DNA of 60,649 bases, taken from positions 1 through 60,649 of the forward strand of contig JACPSL010000037.1 in NCBI GenBank assembly GCA_016193285.1, given 5' to 3'. The stretch is from Candidatus Melainabacteria bacterium. GTDB lineage: Bacteria; Cyanobacteriota; Vampirovibrionia; 2-02-FULL-35-15. Below, piece by piece: positions 242-45,596 of this stretch (its first letter is position 1; each line of letters begins with the position of its first letter). The notes under the pieces were generated by a model, which made no database searches, was not told the DNA's origin, and saw only the letters and a program-made list of their open reading frames with translations. Position numbers and translations under genes: made by a program.

Positions 242-607
242 TTACTTTAGAACCTCAGAAAATCCTAATGTGTCAATAATGTTTTCAGAAACCTTGTGCA
301 GTATCTCTTCATTAATAATTCCAACTTTCTTTATAAGGTTTAATTTATCAACGGTATAAACATGCCACCATACCACATAACTTTCTTTTATTAAATTATT
401 ATTCTTGTTTGGAATTATTTTAATTTCAAGTTCAGACTTCTGTCTTTTTGAAGACAATGGAACAATTACAATTGTAGGTAATATTTTATTTGCTTCATTG
501 GCTTGAATAACTATACATGGTCTATTATTTTTGCCTAATTCTCCCCTTCTGGAAGGGTTTAAATTAACTAGCCAAATATCCCCTTTTTCAATATTTTTTT
601 TAATCAA
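242..607 (-). CDS. pemK: PemK/MazF-family endoribonuclease toxin
   Basis: The 121-residue product has the N-terminal signature of the PemK/MazF family: GDIWLVNLNPS, then a short acidic/basic loop, then RPCIVIQAN and IVIVPLSS. Family members are mRNA interferases that cleave RNA unless bound by an antitoxin. The best start is a TTG at 605-607 embedded in the last codons of the upstream antitoxin, so the two frames overlap by 8 bases and are translationally coupled. Length is typical (about 110-120 residues), so the gene looks intact. The pair sits beside a transposase remnant, a common setting for mobile toxin-antitoxin modules. Confidence 0.85.
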   Translation of the reverse strand: MIKKNIEKGDIWLVNLNPSRRGELGKNNRPCIVIQANEANKILPTIVIVPLSSKRQKSELEIKIIPNKNNNLIKESYVVWWHVYTVDKLNLIKKVGIINEEILHKVSENIIDTLGFSEVLK

Positions 608-863
608 GCTCTTTGTTTAACTCCAATTGAGCTTTTTCAAATTCTAGAAATTCGTTTGCATCATAATTTTCAGCTATTTTTTTATAAGCATTAATTAAAG
701 CTTCTTTTCTTTTAATGAGAGATTCCTTTTTTCTTTGAGAAGCTAATGCAAAAGAAACAACTTTGCTAATAGGGGCATTTAAAAGTTTTGCTTTCTTTTT
801 TACATAGGAAGCAAGCTCCGGAACTAATGTTATTGAAAACTTTTCTGCTGTATTTTTTTTCAT
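600..863 (-). CDS. Antitoxin of the PemK/MazF pair
   Basis: An 87-residue, lysine- and glutamate-rich protein is encoded directly upstream of, and overlapping, the PemK-like toxin. Its N-terminal part (FSITLVPELASYVKKKAK) looks like a ribbon-helix-helix DNA-binding strand and helix; the C-terminal half (KRKEALINAYKKIAEN onward) is helical and acidic and would be the toxin-neutralising tail. The antitoxin-first order is the usual one. Three GTAGGAT iterons lie between its -10 box and its start codon, consistent with autoregulation. The assignment rests mainly on gene context and fold pattern. Confidence 0.75.
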   Translation of the reverse strand: MKKNTAEKFSITLVPELASYVKKKAKLLNAPISKVVSFALASQRKKESLIKRKEALINAYKKIAENYDANEFLEFEKAQLELNKELD

Positions 864-2552: not shown

Positions 2553-3629
2553 ATGGATCAAATATTAATAAAAAAATTAAACGATATAGAAAAAACTTAC
2601 AATGAGCTTGGCAAAAAGCTCGCAGACCCTGCTATTTATGGAGACCAGGAACAACTTAAAAAAACATCTAAAGCAAAAAAATCATTACAGGAAACTTATG
2701 ACTTATATCAGAAATTTAAATCTTTTAATAAAGAATTAGAAGGTGCAAAGGAAATTATAAAAAATGAAGTGGATGCTTCATTAATAGAGCTTGCACAAAG
2801 TGAGATTAATGAAATTACAAAAGAACTAATAAATATAGAAAATCGTTTAAGAATTTTACTTTTACCAAAAGATCCAAATGATGAAAAAAATATTATGCTT
2901 GAAATTCGTGCTGCAGCTGGCGGTGAAGAATCATCAATATTTGCAGGAGATCTTCTTAGAATGTATACAAAATATGCTGACAAGCAAGCCTGGCATACAA
3001 AAATTGTTGATTCAAATCCTGGTGATATTGGAGGTTATAAGATAGTAATTTTTGAAATTACAGGTGAAAATGTTTATAGCAAACTTAAATATGAATCAGG
3101 TGTTCATAGAGTTCAAAGAGTACCTGTTACAGAAGCTTCAGGACGGGTACACACAAGCACTGTTACAGTTGCTGTAATGCCTGAAGTAGATGAAGTAGAT
3201 ATAAAAATTGATCCAAACGATCTTGAAATTACAACAGCTCGTTCTGGTGGTGCTGGTGGTCAAAATGTAAATAAAGTAGAAACAGCTGTTCGTATTGTTC
3301 ACAAACCAACAGGAACTATGGTGCATTGTACTGAAGAGAGAAGCCAAAAACAAAACAGAGAAAGAGCTATGCAAATTCTAAGAGCAAAACTTTATGATAT
3401 GGAATTACAAAAACAACAAAAAGAAATTTATGAAAAAAGAAAAATGCAAGTTGGTACTGGTGATCGCTCTGAAAAAATAAGGACATATAATTTTAAAGAT
3501 AATAGAATTACAGATCATAGATTAAATCAAAATTTTAATTTAAATACTGCTTTAGAAGGTGAATTAGAACCTGTTATTGAAGCCTGTATAGCAGAAGATC
3601 AAAAACAACAATTGCAAGCCTTGGTTTAA
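2553..3629 (+). CDS. prfA: Peptide chain release factor 1
   Basis: The 358-residue length matches RF1. The product carries the universal GGQ motif (G235-G236-Q237, within [17 protein letters not shown]) that triggers peptidyl-tRNA hydrolysis. It also has the class-defining PxT tripeptide ([14 protein letters not shown]) that reads UAA/UAG, where RF2 would have SPF. The N-terminal coiled-coil domain and the [19 protein letters not shown] block are present. It terminates the translation of proteins at ribosomes. Its stop overlaps the stop of the convergent uppS gene by 4 bases, so no terminator separates them. Confidence 0.97.
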
Positions 3630-4389: not shown

Positions 4390-5574
4390 ATGAAAGAAGA
4401 AAAATGTAAAAAAGTTGTCCTAGCATATTCAGGTGGACTTGATACATCGGTTGCTATTAGGTGGTTACTTGAAAATAAAGCAGACAAAGTTATTGCACTT
4501 GCAATTGATTTAGGGCAAGGAAGAGAACTTAAATCAATCCAGGAAAAAGCCTTAAAAATTGGTGCTTCTGAGTCTCTTGTAATTGATGCTAAAAAAGAAT
4601 TTATAAGTGAATATATTTGGCCAGCATTATTTGCAAACGCAATCTACGGTGATTATCCTTTAGCAACAGCACTTGCAAGACCACTTATTGCTAAGCTCTT
4701 AGTTAAAGTAGCTTTATCAAAAAAAGCAGATGCAATTGCACATGGCAGTACAGGTAAAGGAAATGATCAAGTTCGTTTTGATGTTTCGATCATGGCTCTT
4801 GCACCACATTTAAAAATAATTGCACCAGCACGTGAGTGGAAAATGACAAGAGAAAAATCTATTAAATATGCCAAGGAACATTTTATTCCAGTGCCTCTAA
4901 ATAAAAAATCTATTTATAGTGTTGATTTGAATCTTTGGGGAAGATCAGTGGAATGTGGAATCTTAGAAGATGCCTGGAAAGAACCACCAGAAGATGCTTA
5001 TGCATTGACAAAAAACATAAACTCTTCACTATCAAAACCTACTTATATAAATATCGGATTTAAAGATGGGATTCCAGTTACTTTAAATAAGAAAAAATAC
5101 AACGACATAAATTTTATTCAAAGATTAAATCAAATTGCAGGAAATCACGGAGTAGGCAGAATTGATCAAATTGAAAATAGAGTAGTAGGAATTAAAAGTA
5201 GAGAAATATATGAAGCTCCAGCAGCAATAGTTTTATTAAAAGCACATAAAGACTTAGAATCACTTGTTCATACAAGAGAAACAATTTTATTTAAATCTTT
5301 GTTGGATCAAAAATATTCACAATTAATCTATGATGGTCGCTGGTTTAATCCTTTAAGAGAAGCAATTGATGAGTTTAATAAATATATTCAAAAAAGAGTA
5401 ACAGGAATAATTAGAGTAAAACTTTTTAAGGGAAATGTAACAATTGTTGGGCGAAAATCCCCATTTTCACTTTATAAACAAAAACTTGCAACTTATGGGA
5501 AGGGTGATTTATTTGATCAGAGCTCAGCAGAAGGATTTATAAAATTATTTGGGCTGGATTTAAAATCTATTTAA
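4390..5574 (+). CDS. argG: Argininosuccinate synthase
   Basis: The 394-residue product has the PP-loop ATP-binding motif AYSGGLDTS at the N-terminus. HGSTGKGNDQVRF and the SVDLNLWGRSVECGILEDAW block follow, as is typical of argininosuccinate synthase. It joins citrulline and aspartate using ATP in arginine synthesis; argB lies elsewhere in the window. Its last 79 bases (5486-5564) are duplicated at 6891-6969, on the far side of the caspase-like gene. The current C-terminus reads LDLKSI; the other copy continues differently. Confidence 0.96.
   Translation: MKEEKCKKVVLAYSGGLDTSVAIRWLLENKADKVIALAIDLGQGRELKSIQEKALKIGASESLVIDAKKEFISEYIWPALFANAIYGDYPLATALARPLIAKLLVKVALSKKADAIAHGSTGKGNDQVRFDVSIMALAPHLKIIAPAREWKMTREKSIKYAKEHFIPVPLNKKSIYSVDLNLWGRSVECGILEDAWKEPPEDAYALTKNINSSLSKPTYINIGFKDGIPVTLNKKKYNDINFIQRLNQIAGNHGVGRIDQIENRVVGIKSREIYEAPAAIVLLKAHKDLESLVHTRETILFKSLLDQKYSQLIYDGRWFNPLREAIDEFNKYIQKRVTGIIRVKLFKGNVTIVGRKSPFSLYKQKLATYGKGDLFDQSSAEGFIKLFGLDLKSI
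5486..5564 (+). repeat. Direct repeat copy 1 (argG 3' end)
   Basis: This 79-bp segment inside the 3' end of argG matches 6891-6969 at 76 of 79 positions without gaps. The two copies are in the same orientation and bracket the caspase-like gene. Confidence 0.95.
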
Positions 5575-6842
5575 GCTAAAGCATTTAGTTGACTTTTCAA
5601 TTTATCATTTTCAATTGCAGTAATTCCTGCACCGCTATGGCAAGAATCAAAAATTGTTACTGCTTCTATGTCCTTTAAATATTTGTTATATAGTTCTTTA
5701 ATTTGCTCTTCAGTTAAATTATTATTTTTGTTTAAACCAAAAAGAAATCTTTCTGCTCCCTGTTTTTTACTATTTTCAACAGAAACTCCTTCTTGCAATC
5801 CATCGCTACCACCATGTCCGTTGTAAACAATATAAAGCTTTCCAATATTATTCTCTTTTAATCTTGTAGAAATTTCTTTTAACTTGTTTTCAAGCTCTTC
5901 AAAAGTTGGTGTAGTCAAACTGCTGATTTGCTTACAGTGATTATTAGATGTTTCATTAATTGCTTTAGTTAAAACTTTTTCATTTTTTGCAAATTGCTCC
6001 TGCTCTTTGACCGTGTTAGCATCTCCATGAATAAACAGAACTTCAAAGTTAACATTTTTATCCTTTGTTGAGTCTGTACTTAATCTGTGAGTCAATGCTT
6101 GTGGGAGCACACCATTACCATGATACTCACTTTCAGATTTTAGGAAAGCATTTTCTATTGAAGAACCGTTGTTGACTTTGTCTGCAATGAATTTGCTTAC
6201 ACCTGGAGGAGCTTCAGATTCTTGAACTGTAGAGGCAAAAAAACTATGTTTTTCAGGATAGCGTTTTGTTCCACTTTCTGAAAGTTGAAGAATGTTTTTA
6301 CTGGATGTTGCAAGATGCTTTTGTGTTAAAGGATAAATCAAAGGTAGGAGTGTACTGACTAAACGCAATTTTTCAAAAACTGTGTTTGATTTTTTAGAAG
6401 CTGTTTCTAGTTCATCAATACTTTTTGCGTTCTTGATTTCATTCGACAAGCTCTTGGTACTCTCAACACCTTGGAGAAATACTTCTTTTAGATCATTTTG
6501 GATTTTAATTAAAGATTCTGCTGAATCTCCTTTGTTTAATAGTAACTTATGTAAGCTATTACAAATATTTTTTAACTCACTATCTTTTTCACACTTTTCT
6601 GTTAGATTTGATACAGCAAGTAATAATTTCTCTCGAATTTGCTCTTTTGTAGTAGCACCATTAAAAATACTAGCTACTCCACTCTTATTAGCTAGTATTG
6701 GTTTATCATCTTTATCTGTAACAGTTTCTCTTCCACTCTTGGCTAGTACTGGTTTATCATCTTTATCTGTAACAGTTTCTCTTCCATTATTGGTTGGTGT
6801 TGATCCAAAAGAAGATATCGAAATATTGTTAATTTCTGTCAT
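5571..6842 (-). CDS. Caspase-like (C14-type) protease, orthocaspase candidate
   Basis: The C-terminal third of this 423-residue protein has the caspase-fold catalytic dyad: IVYNGHGG (His343) and TIFDSCHSGAG (Cys401), each after a hydrophobic strand. The p20-like core starts around residue 275 (VNFEVLFIHGDAN). These proteases of bacteria cleave after Arg/Lys and are linked to stress and cell-death responses. The N-terminal 270 residues are Ser/Lys/Glu-rich and mostly helical, with a tandem 17-residue repeat (GRETVTDKDDKP). There is no signal peptide. The protein ends only 22 residues after the catalytic Cys, so the p10-like part is missing or very short. The gene overlaps the argG stop by 4 bases and is bracketed by two copies of the argG tail, pointing to acquisition by insertion. 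Confidence 0.8.
   Translation of the reverse strand: MTEINNISISSFGSTPTNNGRETVTDKDDKPVLAKSGRETVTDKDDKPILANKSGVASIFNGATTKEQIREKLLLAVSNLTEKCEKDSELKNICNSLHKLLLNKGDSAESLIKIQNDLKEVFLQGVESTKSLSNEIKNAKSIDELETASKKSNTVFEKLRLVSTLLPLIYPLTQKHLATSSKNILQLSESGTKRYPEKHSFFASTVQESEAPPGVSKFIADKVNNGSSIENAFLKSESEYHGNGVLPQALTHRLSTDSTKDKNVNFEVLFIHGDANTVKEQEQFAKNEKVLTKAINETSNNHCKQISSLTTPTFEELENKLKEISTRLKENNIGKLYIVYNGHGGSDGLQEGVSVENSKKQGAERFLFGLNKNNNLTEEQIKELYNKYLKDIEAVTIFDSCHSGAGITAIENDKLKSQLNALA
6691..6792 (-). repeat. 51-bp tandem repeat inside the caspase-like gene
   Basis: Two consecutive 51-bp units, nearly identical, encode GRETVTDKDDKP followed by V/ILA and a short linker. The in-frame duplication lies in the disordered-looking N-terminus and seems recent. 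Confidence 0.85.
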
Positions 6843-6890
6843 GTTTTTGAGGCTATTATCTCAGCTTAAAATTATGAGTAGGTTAACGAT

Positions 6891-6969
6891 TTGCAACTTA
6901 TGGAAAAGGTGATTTATTTGATCAGAGCTCAGCAGAAGGGTTTATAAAATTATTTGGGCTGGATTTAAA
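6891..6969 (+). repeat. Direct repeat copy 2 (orphan argG tail)
   Basis: This is a gap-free copy of 5486-5564 with three substitutions (GGGAAG/GGAAAA and GGATTT/GGGTTT). Read in the argG frame it stays open (ATYGKGDLFDQSSAEG, then GLDLK) and runs on past the repeat. It is an orphan tail of argG, separated from the gene body by the caspase-like gene. GTTAAC occurs just before and just after it. Confidence 0.95.
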
Positions 6970-6970
6970 G

Positions 6971-7516
6971 TTAACTAGCCCACTTCACGGTACATCCAAT
7001 AGCTTGTGTCTCTGAACTTTTAATTTCTTTATTAGCAAGAACTGCTTCAATAGCTTCTTTTAAGTCTTGCTTGGTAACTTTCTTGGGTTCTTTGTAATTA
7101 TCATCAATTCTGCCATGATACTTTAAAACTTTGTTTTGATCAAAGACAAAAACTTCTGGCGTATAACTTGCACCAAACTTTTTTACAATTTCCTGGGTTT
7201 GATCTCTAAGATAAGGAAAGTTATATCCTTTTTCTTTAGCTCTTTTAATCATATTTTCAAAGCTGTCTTCAGGATAATTTATTTCATTGTTAGAATTTAT
7301 TGCTACAAAAGAAACTAATTTATCTTTAAAAAAACTTTGTAAATCAATAAGTCTTTGTTCATATGCTTGAACATAAGGACAATGATTACAAGTAAACATT
7401 ACTACTAATACTTTACTGTCTTTAAATAAGCTTGGTGTATAGTTCTTGCCATCAATGCCTGGTAAGTTAAAATCAGGTAATTTAGAACCTATTTTTAAGT
7501 GATTTTGTGTAAGCAT
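6971..7516 (-). CDS. Thioredoxin-like/AhpC-TSA family protein
   Basis: The 181-residue product has a thioredoxin fold: GSKLPDFNLPGIDGKNYTPSLF at the start, then VVMFTCNHCPYVQAY with a CxxC (CNHC) redox motif, and the cis-Pro region ASYTPEVFVFD. It lacks a signal peptide, so it should be cytoplasmic. The C-terminal IGCTVKW is typical of a bacterial 'thioredoxin family protein' group whose substrate is not established. Its stop lies one base beyond the orphan argG tail, so it was the original convergent neighbour of argG. Confidence 0.85.
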   Translation of the reverse strand: MLTQNHLKIGSKLPDFNLPGIDGKNYTPSLFKDSKVLVVMFTCNHCPYVQAYEQRLIDLQSFFKDKLVSFVAINSNNEINYPEDSFENMIKRAKEKGYNFPYLRDQTQEIVKKFGASYTPEVFVFDQNKVLKYHGRIDDNYKEPKKVTKQDLKEAIEAVLANKEIKSSETQAIGCTVKWAS

Positions 7517-43398: not shown

Positions 43399-45596
43399 TC
43401 ACCTACTATCCAGATATGAGGTTCTGTAATTTTAGCTAATATTTCTTTTGTTAATGATTCTCTAAAAAATAAGAATTTATTCCTGTTTAATGATTCTCCT
43501 ATTACTATATAGTGTGGTTTAATTTTCTTTTCTGCATTAATTACCTCATCGATAATATTCTTACTTTCAACCAGCCGGAAATCACCTCCAAGTTCAACTA
43601 TTAATTGTTCTAGTTCAATGATTGCTAATTTTCTTTCCTCGCTTAATTTTTTAGTACTTTTGGTTATGTGCATAATTATAAGCTCTGCTTGTAATTTGTT
43701 TGCTATTCTTGCTGATTTTCTAACAAGTCTTAATGTATCAGGATTAATATCAATTAAACTAAGAATTTTAGTTTTTTTTATTTTTGGAAACATTTCATGT
43801 TCAACACTTTCAGCTACTTCTCTTAATGAAAGTTCTCTTAGGGCAATTAAATTTTTCTTTTGAAAAAAATGTGTTAATGCTTGCTCTATTTTATCTAACG
43901 AATAAACTTTCCCGGCTTTTAGTCTTTCTTGTAATGTTTCAGGACTTAGGTCAATTAAAACTATTTCACTGGCATGGGAAATAACCCAGTCAGGGACTGT
44001 TTCTCTGACTTTAATTCCTGTTACTTCTTCAACAATATTGTTTAAGCTTTCTATGTGTTGTATGTTAACTGTGGATACTACATTAATACCAGCTCTCAAT
44101 AGGTATTGAACATCTTGATATCTTTTTTTGTTTATTGAGCCTGGTACATTAGTGTGTGCTAATTCATCTACTAAAATTAAATCTGGTTTAGCTAATATTG
44201 CAGCTTCTAAATCAAATTCTTGTAAGTATTTTTCTTTATGTTCAATAAGCTTTAAAGGTAAGGTAGGTAAGCCCTCCATAAGCTTTGCTGTTTCAGGTCT
44301 TCCATGAGTATCTATAACCCCTAATAAGATTTTTATACCTTGTTTGTATAGCTCTTCAGCATCTTGAAGCATTTTGTATGTTTTGCCAACCCCAGGAGCC
44401 ATCCCAATGTAAATTTTTAATTTTCCATATTTTATTTGTTCTTGTGTTGTGCTGGTTTTACTCTTTTGCATTTCTGCTGTTTGTAAAATATTTTCATCAG
44501 TTTTATTGCCTATCAGTAAAAAATCTATATTTGTTGTTTTTTCAAGTAGTTTAAAAATGGATGGCTTTGAAAAAGAACGTTGTATTGCTATATGAGTTAT
44601 TCTGTTTAATTTAGCAAAATGTATGATCTCCTCTTCTATGTCTTTCTTGATATCTTTTATTGGGAATAAATTCCCTTTGTTTAACTTTGCAGTTTCTCTT
44701 AACTTATTAATTACTTTATCTTTTGCCCCGTTTACTCCGCTTACCTCGCTATATGGTTCTTTTAATATACATAAGATATCAAGATCTGCATGAAAACTTT
44801 TTCTCATATCTCCTACCTGATTAATTACTGTTAATGAGCTTTCTTCTGGAGCAATTGAGACTAGTATTCTTTCTTTTATTTTTGCTTTTAATTTTTCACT
44901 AACAACTTCAATATCTACCCTTTCAGCTAAAATACTTAGTGCCAAATCTCTTAAAAGATTTAAATTGTTTCTTTTAAAAAAATTCTTTAATGCATGTTTT
45001 AATTGTTCTTTGCTGTAGATTCGTTTTGAATTTAATCTGCTATAAAGTTCATCTATTGGTATATCTACTAATACGATCTCATCAGCTTGATTAATAACCC
45101 AATCAGGTACTGTTTCACTGATTTTTATCCCAAGATTTTTTTCTACTATTGGAGTAATACTTTCTAATTGATGTACGTTTAATGTTGAAAATACACTAAT
45201 ACCAGCTTTTAACAGCTCTTGAACATCTTGATATCTTTTTTGATTTAATGAACCTGGTATATTGTGATGTGCTAATTCATCAATTATTACTGTTATAGGT
45301 TTTCTTTCTATTATGGTCTCTAAATCTAAGTCATAAAAATTTGTATTATTTATTTTATATGGTTTCCTTGGAATAATTTCAAATGATTCAAGTAATCGCT
45401 GGTTTTCCGGCCTGTTTTGAAATTCAATATAACCAATTACTATATCCGCACCTTTTTTCTTTAACTCATTTGCTTCCTCTAACATTCTGTACGTTTTACC
45501 TACACCGGGCGCCATCCCAAGAAATATTTTGTGTCTTCCTGAAGAAAGCTTGACTATTTGTTTTAAGATTTCATCTGGTTCTAATCGTTTAGGCAT
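43374..45596 (-). CDS. Tandem KdpD sensor-domain protein without histidine kinase
   Basis: The 740-residue protein contains two complete copies of the N-terminal KdpD module. Copy 1 has Walker A GMAPGVGKT at residues 27-35, VIIDELAHHNIPGS and a USP-like domain (about 240-370). Copy 2 has the same Walker A at 398-406, LVDELAHTNVPGS, and a second USP-like domain (about 610-735). There are no transmembrane helices, HisKA or ATPase kinase domains. Truncated kinase-less KdpD proteins are known in cyanobacteria, but a head-to-tail doubling in one chain is unusual. It starts one base after kdpB and is probably co-transcribed, so it should sense conditions for, or act on, the pump directly. Confidence 0.85.
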   Translation of the reverse strand: MPKRLEPDEILKQIVKLSSGRHKIFLGMAPGVGKTYRMLEEANELKKKGADIVIGYIEFQNRPENQRLLESFEIIPRKPYKINNTNFYDLDLETIIERKPITVIIDELAHHNIPGSLNQKRYQDVQELLKAGISVFSTLNVHQLESITPIVEKNLGIKISETVPDWVINQADEIVLVDIPIDELYSRLNSKRIYSKEQLKHALKNFFKRNNLNLLRDLALSILAERVDIEVVSEKLKAKIKERILVSIAPEESSLTVINQVGDMRKSFHADLDILCILKEPYSEVSGVNGAKDKVINKLRETAKLNKGNLFPIKDIKKDIEEEIIHFAKLNRITHIAIQRSFSKPSIFKLLEKTTNIDFLLIGNKTDENILQTAEMQKSKTSTTQEQIKYGKLKIYIGMAPGVGKTYKMLQDAEELYKQGIKILLGVIDTHGRPETAKLMEGLPTLPLKLIEHKEKYLQEFDLEAAILAKPDLILVDELAHTNVPGSINKKRYQDVQYLLRAGINVVSTVNIQHIESLNNIVEEVTGIKVRETVPDWVISHASEIVLIDLSPETLQERLKAGKVYSLDKIEQALTHFFQKKNLIALRELSLREVAESVEHEMFPKIKKTKILSLIDINPDTLRLVRKSARIANKLQAELIIMHITKSTKKLSEERKLAIIELEQLIVELGGDFRLVESKNIIDEVINAEKKIKPHYIVIGESLNRNKFLFFRESLTKEILAKITEPHIWIVGDYTREISD

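Follow-up and report, generated by a model that had tools for sequence, protein, structure and literature searches.

The 3′ end of argG in one groundwater Melainabacteria lineage carries an inserted gene for a caspase-like protein, and the most unusual feature of that gene, absent from the initial annotation of this DNA, is the reversed order of the two caspase halves. Comparison with its homologs suggests membership of a family of naturally occurring, circularly permuted bacterial caspases in which the p10 half comes first. We assign a probability of about 0.65 to the joint reading that bacteria of the Melainabacteria class possess natural permuted caspases, single-chain proteases ready-made without cleavage between the halves, that would move singly between genomes and that in this case would have entered by capture at the argG end.

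The locus belongs to a stretch of 60,649 nucleotides (the window) from a metagenome-derived genome of 1.81 Mb. The argininosuccinate synthase gene argG (4390–5574, plus strand; Pfam Arginosuc_synth) is intact and encodes 394 amino acids. Its tail is part of a direct repeat of 79 nt, with copy 1 at 5486–5564 and copy 2 at 6891–6969, both on the plus strand, 76/79 identical (96%) at a spacing of 1405. A search of the whole 1.81-Mb genome returned exactly these two copies (E 1e-35 and 1e-31), far above chance, and the homology between them breaks off sharply at either end. The sole gene between the copies encodes the caspase-like protein of 423 amino acids on the minus strand (5571–6842); its stop codon overlaps that of argG, and a 48-bp spacer (6843–6890) separates its start codon from copy 2. 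Beyond copy 2 lies a gene of the redoxin/AhpC-TSA type (6971–7516, minus strand; Pfam Redoxin/AhpC-TSA), the native convergent neighbour of argG. The repeat comparison thus agrees with the initial annotation, which had described a caspase-like gene on the opposite strand between two 79-bp argG tails and had taken copy 1 for the genuine argG 3′ end, as indeed it closes the functional 394-aa argG in frame. Copy 2, which had been described as an orphan tail, has no argG upstream and adjoins the redoxin gene; it is nevertheless not an intact argG end, since its frame runs on past ...LDLK for 14 more codons into the redoxin gene.

If the caspase-like gene entered at the 3′ end of argG, as had been proposed, there should be relatives in which argG directly faces the redoxin gene with a single tail. 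Among Melainabacteria metagenome genomes collected by argG, three loci (L030, L031 and L032) have precisely this arrangement, with prfA, uppS and argG facing redoxin directly, then folC, one tail and no caspase. In a fourth (L049) the redoxin reading frame is fused to folC and argG is again its immediate convergent neighbour, the caspase being absent; different genes lie downstream of argG in a further relative (L033). These empty sites bear out the expectation that removal of the caspase-like gene plus one copy would leave a convergent pair, but not its literal form: when the flanks of the insert are joined in silico, the outcome is a 406-aa argG reading into redoxin, and the normal argG stop is not regained. 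As regards age, the tails of the relatives are 72–85% alike to either copy and the two copies are 96% alike to each other, which argues for a recent insertion, as had been suggested; old divergence of the copies was not observed. Together with the empty sites, this similarity indicates a single insertion, seen once, that postdates the divergence from all relatives sampled.

The initial annotation had further seen here a small site for recurrent swapping of cargo, and this part was not supported. Neither a second argG-tail copy nor other cargo was found in any of the 13 relatives examined (0/13), and the insert has no integrase or recombinase. The same observations weigh on the idea of a site-specific mobile cassette or island with the argG tail as its attachment site. 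Such elements typically show direct repeats at the 3′ end of a gene, which thereby stays intact, and repeats of this type are found here. Nevertheless, neither an own recombinase nor reuse of the site with different cargo accompanies them, and relatives of the caspase sit at unrelated sites where no comparable gene-end repeats flank them, which leaves the cassette very unlikely. The literature search returned no paper on argG as a known integration site.

It has also to be considered that this region of the metagenome assembly could be chimeric, joining a strain in which argG adjoins the caspase to one in which argG adjoins redoxin. The metagenomic origin of the genome and the resemblance of the two tails to two alleles would fit such a join; the junction at 6890/6891, however, contains no Ns and no shared sequence above chance that could mislead an assembler, and genome contamination is 0.01, so that a chimera is very unlikely.

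The favoured route is the capture from a relative, by one crossover, of DNA comprising an argG tail and the caspase gene. According to this proposal, a 1.4-kb piece would have been taken up at the argG 3′ end through a single homologous crossover inside argG, via a circle or one-ended recombination; argG would have stayed whole, now ending in the imported tail (copy 1), and its previous tail (copy 2) would have been displaced next to the redoxin gene. The polarity of the substitutions is consistent with this assignment. The copies differ at positions 14, 17 and 50, and none of the three differences alters the argG product. Copy 2 matches 4/5 relatives at positions 14 and 17, where copy 1 is derived, and position 50 gives no clear polarity. 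Had copy 2 arisen by simple duplication and then drifted neutrally while copy 1 was under constraint, the two polarised changes would both fall on copy 1 with a probability of 0.03–0.07, and would all be synonymous with a probability of 0.04–0.14. From this polarity, and from the differences being all synonymous, copy 1 as the imported tail and copy 2 as the native one are modestly favoured. Laboratory single crossovers of circles yield gene-end duplications of 109–950 bp (PMC3240628), and single-crossover integration, or homology-facilitated illegitimate recombination, resembles the argG case in that a small piece of DNA is gained at a gene end and that end is duplicated; the argG duplication differs in being shorter, at 79 bp, and natural. 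ComEC- and DprA-family proteins are encoded in the genome, as in most control genomes, and DNA uptake by the host is possible on this basis. No donor genome in which argG adjoins such a caspase was found.

The main competitor to capture is a templated duplication, in which the caspase gene came to the argG–redoxin junction in some other way and break repair used argG as the template for a filler of about 80 bp, now copy 2. Copy 2 lies between two occurrences of the repeat GTTAAC (6882–6887, within the spacer, and 6970–6975), it meets redoxin without a closed argG frame, and the sharp limits of homology would also be expected. On the other hand, GTTAAC was spotted post hoc and the window contains it 13 times, and the ancestral state lies in copy 2 with the derived one in copy 1, at odds with a neutral later copy at the above probability of 0.03–0.07. 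Given the open frame of copy 2 and the flanking GTTAAC, both models are kept, with capture preferred and the filler a tentative second possibility. Since copy 2 holds no argG stop, capture must assume an indel.

Turning to the protein, its one Pfam match, to Peptidase_C25, lies below threshold, a PDB sequence search returned nothing relevant, NCBIfam gave a chance match only, and no PADLOC family or defence-system model matches it. Its caspase-like character shows in the catalytic half, which has the p20 features of caspase-fold peptidases (clan CD, family C14 in the wide sense). A p20 profile matches with E 4e-7 and the profile of 19 family members with E 9e-12, and the p20-like half (5571–6065, minus strand) contains a His-Cys dyad formed by His343 in GHG (codon 5814–5816) and Cys401 in DSCHSG (codon 5640–5642). 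The chain stops 22 residues beyond Cys401. Relatives in the same bacterial family share a common core of about 240–300 residues in which an HG motif is combined with one of (S/A/N)Cxx(G/A) type, and nearly all end about 2–25 residues past the conserved Cys, with the seeded member L083 having a longer C-terminal tail. In the same class, bacterial C14 caspase homologs (orthocaspases, PF00656) resemble the window protein in the p20 half, by profile and by GHG and DxCxSG motifs, whereas they have a long stretch beyond Cys with the p10-type part in it; the C14 order of p20 then p10 is not that of the window protein. Instead, a conserved block precedes the p20 half, with a strand that closes with an invariant Gln, a helix and a second helix, an order of elements as in p10, and several distant members have a segment of Q/N-x-P-V type too. 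In the window protein this p10-like half spans residues 195–259 (6066–6260, minus strand), with the invariant Gln207 at 6222–6224. Distant homologs found by profile (e.g., the compact L142 and L143, and L144, L147 and L157) repeat the p10-first order; among the matches listed outside the class, coverage is limited to the p20 part of the profile. The family alignment is highly variable and unsuited to pattern search.

The order of the halves was compared by profile, the alignment of 19 family members being scored against a canonical profile of 25 normal caspases of the class, the latter either in native order or rewritten with p10 first. The native order scored 83.3 over 111 columns covering p20 only, and the p10-then-p20 rewrite 97.2, a gain of 14 units; in a relaxed alignment the p10-first order was collinear across 224 columns (E 6e-14). 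With shuffled p10 columns (n=60) the mean was 83.4 and the maximum 85.7, and the preference was the opposite for a control set of normal caspases (n=17, cyanobacteria and the class; native 348 versus rewritten 236). The homologs without the window family also preferred p10 first (102.8 versus 85.6). The window family alone gave 60.0 versus 57.9, weak evidence of about 2 units, so that the permutation in this family rests on its homology to the remaining members. Shuffles protein by protein gave a Fisher p of 2.6e-6 for the N-terminal half versus p10, a value that is too small because the proteins are related, and 0.68 for the p20 control; p10 scores of single proteins were weak. Early comparisons of the N-terminal half with p10 on few sequences were not significant, and a clear signal emerged once further homologs were included and the order of the halves was compared.

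The weak p10 signal of the window family by itself is also what one would expect of an orthocaspase-like homolog that is not permuted, consisting of p20 only plus an unrelated conserved N-terminal domain, and many bacterial p20-only homologs have been described (PMC6426788). Against this, the combined profile gains its 14 units with p10 first, the shuffled null never exceeding 85.7, and the normal caspases examined have a long post-Cys region that supplies strands of the core sheet. The structure models bear on the same question. While caspases reached only a middle rank with the first single-sequence model, an AlphaFold model with two sequences as input (the window protein and that of L033) predicted a strand, a helix and a helix followed by the p20 pattern, at a mean pLDDT of 54 (low confidence). 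Foldseek on this model placed caspase-1 at rank 1 and engineered circularly permuted caspase-2 at ranks 3 and 5. The permuted enzymes (8vp4, 9c2y) aligned over the full chain with TMq 0.40–0.44, versus mostly 0.28–0.34 for ordinary p20 chains, and permuted caspase-2 thus appears as the best full-length fold match of the modelled protein. No caspase was among the matches listed in a BFVD fold search, nor was any relative of the protein found in viral contigs. With the fold match to permuted caspase-2 added to the order test, the p20-only alternative is unlikely, and we return to the permuted family as the preferred reading.

Caspases are classically controlled by cutting, or by calcium-driven rearrangement, between p20 and p10. 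In the product of the captured gene the p10-type half would come first and the catalytic p20 half second, ending just past Cys, so that the protein may be a single-chain cysteine protease needing no cut between the halves. This proposal draws on the analogy with engineered permuted caspase-2, in which the small half also precedes the large one in one chain (PMC7760212; 8vp4, 9c2y) and the active fold is reached without cleavage (PMC7760212); that enzyme is man-made from human caspase-2 and has about 10% sequence identity to the window protein in the structural alignment. If the analogy holds, the reversed halves would presumably remove the need for inter-subunit cleavage, and control must then lie elsewhere, perhaps in the N-terminal 180 residues or in expression. 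The activity, regulation and role of the protein are all surmised in this way, and a role in cell death, as proposed earlier for this gene, would follow only by analogy. We regard the combination of capture at the argG end with a permuted single-chain protease held in check by its N-terminal region or its expression as somewhat better than an even bet.

Among known enzymes, the type III metacaspases (Choi and Berges 2013, as summarised in PMC5756287 and PMC6426788) share with the 19-member family a p10-like part N-terminal to p20 and a His-Cys dyad, this order being weak in the window family alone. In those summaries their described range is confined to algae of secondary endosymbiosis, unlike the bacterial family. 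Type III enzymes are further marked by a calcium-binding Asp in p10 and by calcium-dependent activity, and since the comparison with the algal enzymes is by description alone, we use the name bacterial circularly permuted caspase family rather than type III metacaspase. A survey in 2019 of about 11,000 prokaryotic p20 proteins reported the p10-first order in none (PMC6426788), and no bacterial permuted caspase is described in the open-access literature searched, subscription papers and preprints being outside its scope. If the present reading is true, the p10-first order does exist in bacteria, contrary to that survey, which bears on the uniqueness of the algal type III metacaspases. The insertion itself is a small case of a single gene captured next to a housekeeping gene, and a recent one when set against the relatives sampled.

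Several further observations concern the family and its surroundings. In the N-terminus of the caspase (window 6680–6790) the peptide GRETVTDKDDKP is repeated in tandem. In the argG neighbourhood of relative G009, another gene of the permuted family (L033, 2429–4222, plus strand) lies between prfA and uppS, and in a further genome a normal-order and a permuted caspase gene (L065 and L147; G059:C27:1093-1716 and 2591-3538) are about 1 kb apart. In G004 the caspase gene and the gene next to it are 96–98% alike over about 450 bp comprising the 5′ end and the DNA upstream of it (L055, 5113–5565 and 7002–7453), and they differ in their C-terminal parts. In G008 a caspase fragment is followed by an array of paralogs of about 460–560 aa with a conserved (R/L)PNCQ(I/V)MA motif (L056, 225–5948, minus strand); a calpain-like reading of these repeated neighbours and a link of the caspase to them were considered and set aside, as they have no significant Pfam match and most genomes of this bacterial family contain members of the motif family. 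Elsewhere in the window, a direct repeat of about 40 bp (179–218 and 1484–1522, 86–95% alike in two pieces) brackets a PemK/MazF-like toxin gene (242–607, minus strand) and a small partner gene (600–863, minus strand), and a 223-nt direct repeat, 73% identical, is found at 43951–44173 and 45064–45286, 1.1 kb apart.
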